Positions 3,202 to 6,412 of a stretch of DNA of 64,000 bases are shown here, piece after piece. Numbering within the stretch: the first letter of the stretch is position 1; each line of letters starts with the position of its first letter. The notes under the pieces are model-generated. The model was not told the origin of the DNA and ran no database searches. It was given only the letters and a program-made list of their open reading frames with translations. The stretch is from Armatimonas rosea (GTDB lineage Bacteria > Armatimonadota > Armatimonadia > Armatimonadales > Armatimonadaceae). Location of the stretch: positions 620,001 through 684,000 of the forward strand of contig NZ_JACHGW010000004.1 in assembly GCF_014202505.1 (NCBI RefSeq), written 5' to 3'. The translations under genes and the position numbers were made by a program.

Positions 3202-4248
3202 ATGCCCCGTAGAATCGTCACCGAAGACGGCTCCCGTTTCTGGATCGCGGACTACGAGCTCGCACCGCTGGCTGCAGATGAGGTGAAGGTCCGGGTCACG
3301 CTCGCTGCGCCCAAGCACGGCACCGAGGCGCAGCTCCTTACGGGAAGTGCCTTTAGTGCCAAGGAGTGGAACCCGGAGTTGCGCCTCTTCCTCCCCCGTC
3401 CTGAGACCAGCACACCAGCACCGCCGAGCCCACGGGGAATCGGCAATATGGTGGTCGGGGAGGTCCTCGAAGTCGGTGCGGCGGTCACCCGCTTTGCGCC
3501 GGGAGATCGCGTTTTTGGCTACGGCCAGGTGCGCGAGCAGGTACACCTCCCAGAGGCCAAGCTCTTCCCGCTTGGGGAGCTCTCCGAGGCCGATGCGGTC
3601 TGCTGCGACCCGGCGCATGTCGCCTTTGTGGCGGTGCGCGATGGCAATATCCGGATCGGGGACGATGTCGCGGTCTTTGGGCTGGGGGCGATTGGTCTTC
3701 TCGCGGTTCAGCTCGCGCGGGCTGCGGGAGCCCACCGTGTCTTTGCGGTCGATCCCCTCGCCCTCCGTCGGGAGCACGCCCTCGCGCACGGAGCGACCGC
3801 GGCCCTCAATCCGCTAAGCTGCGACCCTGCGCTGGAGATCAAGCTCGCCACCCAAAAGCTCGGGGTCGATGTCGCCATTGAGACCTCCGGCAACGGCAAG
3901 GCCCTCAACGACTCCATTCGCTGCGTCCGGCAGTGCGGCACGGTGGTGCATGTCCCGTGGGGCCCCAAAGACGCGAGCGCGCTCAAGCTGGGGGAGGAGT
4001 TCCACCACAACCGCCCGACGATTGTCGGGAGCCAGGCCTGGGTGGGCTGGGGCAATGCGGACCGCTCCCACCCCCTCTGGGACCACGAGCGCGCCTACCT
4101 GGCCACCATCCAGCTCTTCCGTGACCGCAAGCTCACTGGCGAGGGAATCGTCACGCCAATCGTCGCCTTCGAAGACGCCCCTGACGTTCTTCCGACCATC
4201 TTCACGGCACCGGAAAAATCCATCAAAATCGGGGTTCGTTTCGAGTAA
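3202..4248 (+). CDS. medium-chain (zinc-type) dehydrogenase/reductase family protein
   Basis: 348-residue MDR-superfamily oxidoreductase: an N-terminal GroES-like catalytic domain (residues 1-145) and a Rossmann domain with NAD(P)-binding GLGAIG at 160-165 and an acidic residue at the end of the second strand (AVDP), which favours NAD. The usual catalytic zinc ligands are not obvious: the position that is normally Cys reads PKHGTE, and no GHE motif is seen. It may therefore be a zinc-poor or zinc-free member acting on a sugar or polyol. The start is 3 nt after nadB, so the two are likely co-transcribed, although no pathway link is apparent. Substrate unknown. Confidence 0.8.
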   Translation: MPRRIVTEDGSRFWIADYELAPLAADEVKVRVTLAAPKHGTEAQLLTGSAFSAKEWNPELRLFLPRPETSTPAPPSPRGIGNMVVGEVLEVGAAVTRFAPGDRVFGYGQVREQVHLPEAKLFPLGELSEADAVCCDPAHVAFVAVRDGNIRIGDDVAVFGLGAIGLLAVQLARAAGAHRVFAVDPLALRREHALAHGATAALNPLSCDPALEIKLATQKLGVDVAIETSGNGKALNDSIRCVRQCGTVVHVPWGPKDASALKLGEEFHHNRPTIVGSQAWVGWGNADRSHPLWDHERAYLATIQLFRDRKLTGEGIVTPIVAFEDAPDVLPTIFTAPEKSIKIGVRFE

Positions 4249-4268: not shown

Positions 4269-4296
4269 TGGGTCGGGTGGGACTCGAACCCACGAC
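4269..4296 (-). repeat. 28-bp copy of the tRNA-Lys 3' end (outer direct repeat)
   Basis: Identical over 28 bp to 4771-4798, the part of the tRNA gene from the variable loop through the T arm and acceptor strand to base 73. The flanking bases differ on both sides (g/a and g/c). The upstream part of a tRNA is absent here: on the minus strand the copy is preceded directly by the endonuclease stop codon, so this is a displaced or duplicated 3' end and not a tRNA. Confidence 0.9.
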
Positions 4297-4300
4297 GAAC

Positions 4301-4747
4301 TTAATTATTGAAAAATATTCGAGAGGGGTTACAAAAAGCATCCGCTAGATGAACACCCTTAACTTGGTTATTACTTGGAAGACACACTCTCAATGTAAAT
4401 GCTCGAGTATTACCTTGAAATTCGATTGTATTCACATAGAAAACACGATCAACACTAGGACAATAAATCGCAAAAGCATCAATATACGACAGGTCTTTCT
4501 TAACAGAGTACATACCTTTATTGTTGGTCCAAGAAGTTCCCTCCAAAGGGATCGAAATCTTCCCGGCTCTCAATGATATATATTTCACTTGAACTCTTTT
4601 CAAGCGACCATCATCACAGTTAATGGCAATCAAATCGAATGGTAAATGTTCAGAGATAGGTAGACACACCTGAAAACCATTTTTCATCAAGTCAGCTATA
4701 ACAAGAGCAACGCCTATGTCACCTTTGTTTTTTGTATGATGATTCAC
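4301..4747 (-). CDS. PD-(D/E)XK homing endonuclease, I-Ssp6803I-like
   Basis: 148 residues from a GTG start. The core is KNKGDIGVALVIADLMKNGF, then PISEHLPFDLIAIN, then KRVQVKY. These correspond to the catalytic scaffold of the PD-(D/E)XK endonucleases found in group I introns of bacterial tRNA genes (I-Ssp6803I type), with Asp38, Gln53 and Lys55 as expected active-site residues; Gln in place of the usual Glu is a known feature of that family. The frame stays open upstream through the tRNA insert, but homology starts at residue 1 used here. The stop codon lies 4 nt from a 28-bp copy of the tRNA 3' end. Codon use and base composition are AT-rich and foreign to the window. The target is probably the tRNA-Lys gene itself (inference). 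No group I intron core surrounds it. Confidence 0.8.
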   Translation of the reverse strand: MNHHTKNKGDIGVALVIADLMKNGFQVCLPISEHLPFDLIAINCDDGRLKRVQVKYISLRAGKISIPLEGTSWTNNKGMYSVKKDLSYIDAFAIYCPSVDRVFYVNTIEFQGNTRAFTLRVCLPSNNQVKGVHLADAFCNPSRIFFNN

Positions 4748-4770
4748 GTTTGATTCCAAGTAGAAAAATA

Positions 4771-4900
4771 TGGGTCGGGTGGGACTCGAACCCACGACCA
4801 ATGCCTTATCGCTTTTCTCAGGATTTGCACCTGAAATGGCTGGACGCCACTGCGCTTGCGACAAGCAAAGGGCACTGCTCTACCGCTGAGCTACCGACCC
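4771..4900 (-). tRNA. tRNA-Lys(UUU) with a 58-nt insert in the anticodon loop
   Basis: Read on the minus strand, GGGTCGG at 4900-4894 pairs with CCGACCC at 4778-4772, followed by base A73 and no encoded CCA. The D arm is GCTC/GAGC, the anticodon stem GTGCC/GGCAT, the variable loop 5 nt, and the T arm GTGGG-TTCGAGT-CCCAC. Removing 4809-4866 leaves a 72-nt tRNA with anticodon loop CTTTTAA, i.e. anticodon UUU for lysine. The 58-nt insert lies between anticodon positions 35 and 36. It is too short for a complete group I intron, so either the gene is a pseudogene, or the RNA is processed in an unknown way. The gene is transcribed divergently from pyk. Confidence 0.75.
4809..4866 (-). other. intron-like insert in tRNA-Lys (three small hairpins)
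   Basis: 58 nt that can fold as GCTTG-TCG-CAAGC, TGGC-GTCCA-GCCA and TCAGG-TGCAAAT-CCTGA. The first hairpin extends through a T.G pair across the 5' junction, as in group I intron P1. The third, with its following AAAAGC, resembles the P4 strand region of bacterial tRNA group I introns. Nothing like P7, P3' or P8 is present, so it cannot be a self-splicing intron by itself. It is most simply a deletion remnant, although both junctions restore a perfect anticodon loop. Confidence 0.55.
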
Positions 4901-4987: not shown

Positions 4988-6412
4988 ATGACACGCACAA
5001 AAATCGTCTGTACCCTCGGCCCTGCGGTCGATGCCCCTGAGACTCTGGAGCAGCTGATCCGAGCGGGGCTGGATGTTGCTCGCTTCAACTTCTCGCACGG
5101 CACCCACACACAGCACTCCGATCGCTTTGCCCGCCTGAAAGCCGCGGCGTCCGCAGTGGGGAAGCATGTCGCGGTACTCCAGGACCTCTGTGGGCCAAAG
5201 CTACGCGTGGGCACCCTGGAGGCGGGCGTGGTGCTCGACGATGGCGCGAGCGTTCTGCTCACCCAAGAGGGCAGCATTGGCAATGCCGAGCGAGTCCCTC
5301 TGCCCATTCCCGAGTTCTTTGCGGTCGCGGATGTGGGGGCACGGCTCCTGCTCGACGATGGGCTCTTGGAGCTTCAGGTGGAGGAAGTGCTCCCGGAGGC
5401 CGTGCGCTGCCGCGTGATCCAAGGTGGGCCGCTCTCGTCGGGGAAGGGCGTGAACCTGCCGGGGGTCGCGCTCCCCATCCGCGCCGTGACCGAGAAGGAC
5501 GAGCAAGACCTGGCCTTTGGTCTCGCGCTGGGGGTGGACTATGTCGCCCTCTCGTTTGTGCGCCACGCCGACGATGTCCACTACCTGCGGTCTCTGATGG
5601 AGCGCGCTGGGCGTGTTGTCCCCATCTTGGTCAAGATCGAGAAGGCGGAGGCAGTGGAGAACCTCGATGCGATCTTAGCGGTCGCCGACGGTGCGATGGT
5701 GGCCCGTGGGGACCTCGGGATCGAGCTTCCGGTGGAGGAGATGGCGATGATCCAGAAGCGCCTGATCCGCGCTTGCAACACCCTGGGCAAGCCTGTCATT
5801 ACCGCCACCCAGATGCTAGACTCCATGATCCGCAACCCGCGTCCCACCCGCGCTGAGGTGACCGATATCGCCAATGCCATCCTCGACGGCAGCGATGCGC
5901 TGATGCTCTCGGGTGAGACCGCGGTCGGTGCCTACCCGATCCAGGCAGTCGAGACCATGGGCCGAATCGCACGCCGCACCGAGGAGCAGCTCAACTACGA
6001 CCAGATTCTCCGGGACAAGACCAACCTCTTTGGCCGAGAGAGCATCACCGATGCGGTCGCGGAGGCGGCGGTCACTATCGCCCACGACCAGCAGGCCACT
6101 GCCATCCTCTGCGCCACCGAGACCGGCGGCACCGCGCGCTCTGTGGCCAAGTTCCGCCCGCGCTCCCAGGTACTCGCGGTCACTCCCTCCCCCGAGACCT
6201 GCCGTCGGCTCGCCCTCTTCTGGGGGGTGCAGCCCCTCCTCATGCCGCCGCCCACCAGTGTCGATGGACTGCTCCTCGAGAGTACGGCAGTTGCGGAGCG
6301 GAGCGGCTATCTCAAGCAAGGAGATCTCTTTGTCCTGACCTCGGGGACGCCTCTTGGCAAGCCGGGCAGCACCAATCTCATAAAGGTACACTCTCTTGGC
6401 GATCCTCTCTAA
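4988..6412 (+). CDS. pyk: pyruvate kinase
   Basis: Converts phosphoenolpyruvate and ADP to pyruvate and ATP, the last step of glycolysis. The 474-residue protein has the N-terminal TRTKIVCTLGPA and RFNFSHG motifs, a B domain, the active-site block VKIEKAEAVENLDAIL followed by ARGDLGIELP (metal and phosphate binding), the MLDSMIRNPRPTRAEVTDIANAILDG signature, and a C-terminal allosteric-type domain with TGGTARSVAKFRP. Length is typical. The gene has its own TATAAT promoter, divergent from the tRNA-Lys gene. Its 3' end overlaps the start of the following DivIC/FtsB-like gene by 17 nt, so translation of the two may be coupled. Confidence 0.95.
   Translation: MTRTKIVCTLGPAVDAPETLEQLIRAGLDVARFNFSHGTHTQHSDRFARLKAAASAVGKHVAVLQDLCGPKLRVGTLEAGVVLDDGASVLLTQEGSIGNAERVPLPIPEFFAVADVGARLLLDDGLLELQVEEVLPEAVRCRVIQGGPLSSGKGVNLPGVALPIRAVTEKDEQDLAFGLALGVDYVALSFVRHADDVHYLRSLMERAGRVVPILVKIEKAEAVENLDAILAVADGAMVARGDLGIELPVEEMAMIQKRLIRACNTLGKPVITATQMLDSMIRNPRPTRAEVTDIANAILDGSDALMLSGETAVGAYPIQAVETMGRIARRTEEQLNYDQILRDKTNLFGRESITDAVAEAAVTIAHDQQATAILCATETGGTARSVAKFRPRSQVLAVTPSPETCRRLALFWGVQPLLMPPPTSVDGLLLESTAVAERSGYLKQGDLFVLTSGTPLGKPGSTNLIKVHSLGDPL

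Follow-up and report, generated by a model that had tools for sequence, protein, structure and literature searches.

A homing endonuclease gene beside a tRNA-Lys gene, and a tRNA-like insert within that tRNA gene, in Armatimonas rosea

In the bacterium Armatimonas rosea, a tRNA-Lys gene is followed by a homing endonuclease gene (HEG) and then by a second copy of the tRNA's own 3' end. What kind of element leaves such an arrangement, and in what state is the tRNA gene left? We addressed this question in the window (the whole 64,000-nucleotide stretch of DNA analysed), in related genomes and in phages. The joint explanation that fits best, and that we consider likely, is that a homing unit without an intron and a tRNA-like intron have come together in one tRNA-Lys gene.

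Organization of the tRNA-Lys locus

An earlier note on this DNA had described the order tRNA-Lys, low-G+C endonuclease gene and second copy of the tRNA 3' end, and our analysis confirmed it: on the minus strand, tRNA-Lys(UUU) (4900-4771) precedes the HEG (4747-4301), and the second 3'-end copy runs down to 4269. The features of the locus, in window coordinates, are as follows.

4988-6412, plus strand: pyruvate kinase gene (pyk), the left flank in common with the HEG-free relative G001
4771-4900, minus strand: interrupted tRNA-Lys(UUU) gene, with exon 1 at 4867-4900 and exon 2 at 4771-4808
4809-4866, minus strand: tRNA-like insert (putative intron) of 58 nt between U35 and U36, its boundaries set by intronless relatives
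4860-4866, minus strand: 5' strand (GCTTGTC) of the acceptor-like stem of the insert, starting at the 5' junction and forming six of seven pairs with GAAAAGC at 4811-4817
4818-4834, minus strand: T-arm of the insert, with stem TCAGG/CCTGA (five of five pairs) and the 7-nt loop TGCAAAT; an arm common to all six distinct inserts
4811-4817, minus strand: 3' strand (GAAAAGC) of the acceptor-like stem, followed by a 2-nt trailer, GA, at 4809-4810
4771-4801, minus strand: proximal (active) copy of the tRNA 3' end, without encoded CCA; part of the direct repeat
4301-4747, minus strand: PDDEXK_5 HEG (PF11645), 148 amino acids, GTG start, with D38, Q53 and K55 conserved
4269-4304, minus strand: displaced second 3' half of tRNA-Lys, followed by CCA; it starts from U35 with a 3-nt deletion, and its best-matching part is 4269-4299
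3202-4248, plus strand: zinc-type dehydrogenase gene, here between nadB and tRNA-Lys and missing at the syntenic place in G001

The direct repeat (4269-4299 and 4771-4801) is 31 nt long, with 30 of the 31 positions identical and a start-to-start distance of 502 bp; its local alignment score is 29, against a maximum of 19 among 1000 shuffles. The HEG has a G+C content of 36.7%, compared with 63% for the window, and is the only gene between the repeats, where no integrase gene was found. A search with Rfam gave no group I or group II intron match at the locus. The break had been placed previously in the 3' half of the tRNA, at the variable loop. The distal copy, however, can be extended with a 3-nt deletion to U35-U36-A37-A38-G39, so that the stop codon of the HEG, TAA, coincides with U36-A37-A38. 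Since the distal copy is traceable to anticodon-loop bases, the HEG stop codon among them, the break point of the unit was probably in the anticodon loop rather than in the variable loop.

The tRNA-Lys gene itself had been taken for an ordinary intact tRNA, and its 58-nt tRNA-like insert had been missed. It measures 130 nt, not about 73, and the Rfam tRNA model (RF00005) matches it with 59.5 bits, the anticodon loop being greatly enlarged by an insertion. Standard bacterial tRNA annotation misses genes of this kind; plain ARAGORN found no tRNA in the window, and thus none at this locus.

The endonuclease family and its tRNA genes

The product of the HEG matches PF11645 (PDDEXK_5; E = 2.2e-26) and contains the catalytic D and Q/E-x-K of that family; in an alignment with seven relatives, D38, Q53 and K55 (D plus Q-x-K) do not vary. 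The genome contains another HEG of this family, whose product matches I-Ssp6803I (PDB 2ost; E = 6e-10). The assignment of the gene to the PD-(D/E)XK homing endonucleases of the type known from tRNA group I introns is borne out by these matches.

The earlier note had proposed looking in relatives for the empty site and for the same family beside other tRNA genes, and both were found. In the same-genus genome G001 the order is pyk, tRNA-Lys, nadB, with neither HEG nor second 3' copy, and HEG-free alleles are present there at both the tRNA-Lys and the tRNA-Asn loci. Because the dehydrogenase gene is also missing in G001, the downstream flank is uninformative as to which of the two 3' copies is ancestral. 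Beside other tRNA genes, members of the family occur not only in the A. rosea genome but also in phages and in order-level relatives; in one of the latter, G017, they abut tRNA-His, tRNA-Ala and tRNA-Arg. Group I introns of G007 and G017 (L038 and L039) house other members, and the flanks of these introns look like tRNA-fMet. Intron-free homing, as claimed for this locus, thus agrees with the lack of a group I or II match there, but does not extend to the family throughout. Beside the HEGs in L042, L044, L045, My1, phi-pp2, Herod and Jada, a displaced tRNA fragment was looked for but not detected, and no relatives of the HEG were found on plasmids.

The second HEG of the A. rosea genome (G000) belongs to a unit on contig C1 (L033:953-1480), where it sits between a 27-nt tRNA-Asn fragment and a whole tRNA-Asn gene. 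The distance from tRNA-Asp to tRNA-Asn in G001 is 5 nt, and the same spacing separates tRNA-Asp from the fragment in G000. Furthermore, the fragment reads TCTCTTG, as does the G001 gene, while the active G000 gene reads TCTTCTG. As the fragment corresponds to the G001 allele and the active copy differs from it, the comparison shows that a new 5' end came in with the tRNA-Asn unit, which pushed the old one aside. The G000 genome also contains two arrays of divergent tRNA genes, at C1:1185500-1189800 (L035) and C1:961900-965000 (L033), which duplicate the core set and are probably carried by mobile elements.

Phage relatives of both HEGs abut or overlap tRNA-Ile, tRNA-Met, tRNA-Val, tRNA-Arg and tRNA-Ser genes. 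A unit of exactly 568 bp is present in eight IMG/VR cyanophage contigs (L335-L342), at positions 1347-1914, and consists of 11 nt, a complete tRNA-Arg(UCU), a spacer and the HEG, which is its only gene besides the tRNA. It is located in the anticodon loop, between U36 and A37, of another tRNA-Arg(UCU); when the flanks are joined without it, ARAGORN reads tRNA-Arg(tct) in L335-L339. Between backgrounds with different outer tRNAs the units share 92-94% identity, and Synechococcus phage Sf-FR1 (L202) has the unit at 99.6% identity in a further context. An exact-pattern search found no uninterrupted phage tRNA-Arg allele, and loci L335 and L337 gave no group I or II intron match. In our data, it is this cyanophage unit that points most clearly to anticodon loops as the target of the HEG family and to a replacement tRNA as its cargo. 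In Streptomyces phage Jada (L353), a PDDEXK HEG starts 1 nt past tRNA-Ser, two genes away from a gene annotated as RNA ligase.

Judging from these arrangements, it is quite likely that the HEG unit of the window is an intronless homing variant of the kind described. An endonuclease of the I-Ssp6803I type would most likely cut the anticodon arm of HEG-free tRNA-Lys alleles, and recombinational repair would then copy in the HEG together with a replacement tRNA 3' half. The tRNA would stay intact, and its resident 3' half would end up downstream as a non-functional remnant. At tRNA-Asn in G000 this HEG family has replaced the 5' end, and in cyanophages it would bring a whole replacement tRNA-Arg. 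The claim of tRNA-end replacement holds best at tRNA-Asn and in the phages; the two copies in the window are so nearly identical that replacement and local duplication are indistinguishable at this locus. If the tRNA 3' end was merely duplicated locally when a HEG was inserted downstream, no end being replaced, the near identity of the copies would follow, and so would the resemblance of the proximal 3' flank (CATATTTTTCTACTTG) to that of the HEG-free G001 (CATATTATTTTCATACTAG). We regard such a duplication as rather unlikely, given the real replacement in the tRNA-Asn and phage cases and a distal copy that traces to the anticodon loop and not to an arbitrary point.

Integrases that target tRNA genes usually leave, as their footprint, a low-G+C insert framed by two direct copies of a tRNA 3' end. 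Since the repeat and the low-G+C insert of the window fit this footprint, the 502-bp unit might be read as what is left of a larger integrative element, one whose integrase acted on the tRNA 3' end and which carried the HEG as a passenger. However, besides the missing integrase gene, the HEG family is found at 5' ends and within anticodon loops, unlike 3'-end integrases; the phage unit is constant in size, with the HEG as its sole gene apart from the tRNA; and the tRNA-Asn and phage units come close to HEG units without a tRNA-integrase footprint. A remnant of that kind is very unlikely in our assessment. Under the preferred reading, homing with a replacement tRNA end, a selfish endonuclease could occupy an essential, conserved RNA gene without an intron, by supplying either the missing piece or a whole tRNA.

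tRNA-shaped inserts in anticodon loops

Seven interrupted tRNA genes, for Lys, Ile2, Arg-UCU and Leu-UAA, were found in three related genomes, with inserts of 45-58 nt. The Lys and Ile2 genes are interrupted in both G000 and G001, the Arg-UCU and Leu-UAA genes in G001, and the Leu-UAA gene also in G004, where the insert is a related one. Uninterrupted counterparts exist for each: the joined tRNA-Lys exons match tRNA-Lys genes of same-family genomes at 93-96%, G005 and G010 have the tRNA-Ile2(CAU) exons in identical form with nothing between them, and the Arg-UCU and Leu-UAA genes are uninterrupted in G000. Among the tRNA genes found in G001, a draft about 96% complete, there are no other genes for Lys-UUU, Arg-UCU or Leu-UAA; its only canonical Ile2 gene is the interrupted one, and one further CAU tRNA is of a divergent type. 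In G000, a divergent gene (L029) also encodes Lys-UUU, and there are other CAU tRNAs. Essential tRNA genes in these genomes bear short tRNA-shaped inserts for which no splicing system is known.

Between G000 and G001 the Ile2 insert is identical at 49 of 49 positions, while the Ile2 exons differ at two; the Lys insert is altered, its arms being kept. Because G001 carries the Lys insert and no HEG, the HEG is not needed for the insert. Searching 291 genomes of the phylum with a model of the inserts (R1) gave true inserts in G000, G001 and G004 only, and none was found among 39 other bacteria. The weak additional matches, on inspection, were mostly ordinary tRNA T-arms, and L188 was placed in neither group. 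A pattern scan over 84,980 genomes yielded, among the matches listed, mostly false pairs and does not imply absence elsewhere.

Every insert has the same architecture. A 7-nt strand at the 5' junction pairs with a 7-nt strand that ends 2-4 nt before exon 2, and the interior contains a 5-bp stem with a 7-nt T-type loop (TTCGATT, TTCGATA, TTCAAAT, TTCAACT, TGCAAAT or TGCGACT). The resulting minihelix has 11-12 of its 12 pairs in each case; in the Lys inserts, one pair of the 7-bp stem is mismatched and the T-loop lacks U55. Pairing in the core alignment extends to 98% of 102 cells, and both partners have changed in 16 of 17 pairs; these counts rest on a hand-cut, trimmed core (MAFFT misaligned the variable middle of full inserts). 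None of 500 shuffles reached this pairing, and slid registers came nowhere near it either.

Known classes were compared with the inserts. Group I introns have a conserved catalytic core, and in them the 5' exon ends in U and the intron in G. The inserts give no match to RF00028 in Rfam and, at 45-58 nt, are too short for the core; their junctions break the U...G rule, being U/A (Lys of G000), U/A (Lys of G001), A/G (Ile2), C/A (Arg), U/A (Leu of G001) and U/A (Leu of G004). YrlA Y RNA (RF02553) was rejected as well: the tRNA-Lys locus matches as a tRNA, and YrlA matches lie at other loci, e.g. L071, L061 and L067. Long tRNA-like genes ending in GGTTATC (L061-L063, L065, L066, L071-L073 and L076) were first taken for intron-bearing genes, and several of them match YrlA below threshold.

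Two side observations arose from these searches. YrlA-like Y RNAs appear across the phylum, with sub-threshold RF02553 matches in L071, L061 and L067 and similar-looking sequences in L062, L063, L065, L066, L072, L073 and L076; several such loci are reported as insert-bearing tRNAs by Infernal and by ARAGORN in intron mode. In G008, a relative of the genomes that bear the mini-insert in tRNA-Ile2, a tRNA-Ile2 gene (L116:1-356) contains a group I-like intron with a sub-threshold RF00028 score of 24 bits.

We think it likely, on the comparative evidence, that the inserts are real spliced introns of an unrecorded class. They could instead be decayed group I introns or pseudogene debris, with the interrupted tRNAs dead, and relatives do carry group I introns in tRNA-fMet (L038 and L039) and, below threshold, in tRNA-Ile2 (L116). 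Decay is nevertheless hard to reconcile with an Ile2 insert unchanged between two species and with tRNA-Lys exons that are one base apart over positions 1-34 and none over 35-72. The insert structure covaries across unrelated sequences, the interrupted genes are the only Lys-UUU, Arg-UCU and Leu-UAA genes found in G001, the boundaries break the group I rule, and the size leaves no room for a group I core; we consider dead genes improbable. Introns of the archaeal type, removed by the splicing endonuclease at a bulge-helix-bulge (BHB) motif, are similar in size and in their anticodon-loop location. In the BHB motif, 3-nt bulges at the two splice sites flank a helix of 4 bp. Of the eight archaeal introns used as controls, seven reach the full central-helix score of four of four, at 37/38; the interrupted genes studied here reach at most two of four, or three of four in one case. 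The mini-tRNA score shows the reverse, with 11-12 of 12 for the inserts and no more than 9 for the controls. That the inserts are introns of the archaeal type is thus extremely unlikely.

Possible removal of the inserts and relation to known systems

For the inserts, read as spliced introns, the tRNA shape itself offers a route of removal. A coaxial helix of 7 + 5 bp is the length ruler of RNase P and RNase Z. The insert would fold into a 12-bp acceptor/T-arm minihelix and, because this helix begins with a pair right at the 5' junction, an RNase P cut would fall exactly at the 5' splice site and leave a 3'-OH on exon 1. A second cut, by an RNase Z-like enzyme with trimming or by another nuclease, would release exon 2, and an RNA ligase would join the tRNA halves. 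The 3' junction lies 2-4 nt beyond the acceptor-like stem, so that RNase Z, cutting past the discriminator, would leave 1-3 extra nt. We put this RNase P route forward tentatively, with slightly more doubt than confidence.

An ATP-dependent RNA ligase gene (PF09414) overlaps a gene for an HD + AAA_33 kinase in both G000 and G001 (L325:314-2103 and L326:311-2100); the ligase and HD-kinase pair is an RNA-repair cassette. RtcB is also encoded in both genomes, and a search of the intronless genus g5 gave no match to PF09414. Since the ligase is present in relatives without a detected insert (G002, G003 and G008), its link with the inserts is suggestive only.

The nested tRNA of the cyanophages suggests, by analogy, how mini-tRNA introns might start. 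In collaborative homing, an intron can be mobilised by a free-standing HEG whose target is the intron site (PMC3984707), and by the same analogy a free-standing HEG may mobilise the inserts, both occupying the anticodon loop. The broadest form of the proposal, which we judge evenly balanced, is that there is a third class of bacterial tRNA introns, namely 45-58-nt anticodon-loop mini-tRNAs that ordinary tRNA-end maturation enzymes remove, RNase P acting at the 5' splice site and an RNA ligase thereafter; these introns may descend from cyanophage-like units and may be mobilised by the HEG. If true, RNase P removal and a repair ligase would constitute a new route of tRNA splicing, and there would be a direct, testable model of nested tRNAs becoming introns.

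No description of an anticodon-loop HEG unit or of mini-tRNA inserts was found in the literature searched, most subscription journals lying outside the search. The nearest known systems each share a part of the arrangement. The I-Ssp6803I-type endonuclease belongs to a tRNA-fMet group I intron, whereas the window HEG lies outside any group I intron and would keep its target functional by supplying tRNA sequence. In fungal mitochondria, mobile ORFs replace the 3' end of atp6, atp9, cox2 and nad3 (PMC3630166). The two systems are alike in that the HEG lies between the new and the displaced copy of a gene end, the displaced copy matching HEG-free relatives; the fungal system concerns protein genes and LAGLIDADG or GIY-YIG enzymes in organelles (PMC3630166), in contrast to the tRNA genes of a bacterium and of phages, where either end or a whole tRNA is supplied. 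SegB of phages, a GIY-YIG enzyme, is likewise encoded by a free-standing HEG that adjoins tRNA genes and cuts within them, but it is an unrelated nuclease, and in the part of the source available to us a fixed anticodon-loop unit is not described for it (PMC13096335). As with tRNA-targeting integrative elements, the tRNA end would be restored and a displaced copy left; unlike them, the window unit has no integrase, only a HEG.

A review of 2014 lists bacterial tRNA introns as group I or group II only (PMC4033280). Group I introns of bacteria and BHB introns of archaea interrupt the anticodon loop as the inserts do, but the inserts differ from both in being tRNA-shaped and 45-58 nt long, with neither the group I core and boundary rule nor the BHB motif.
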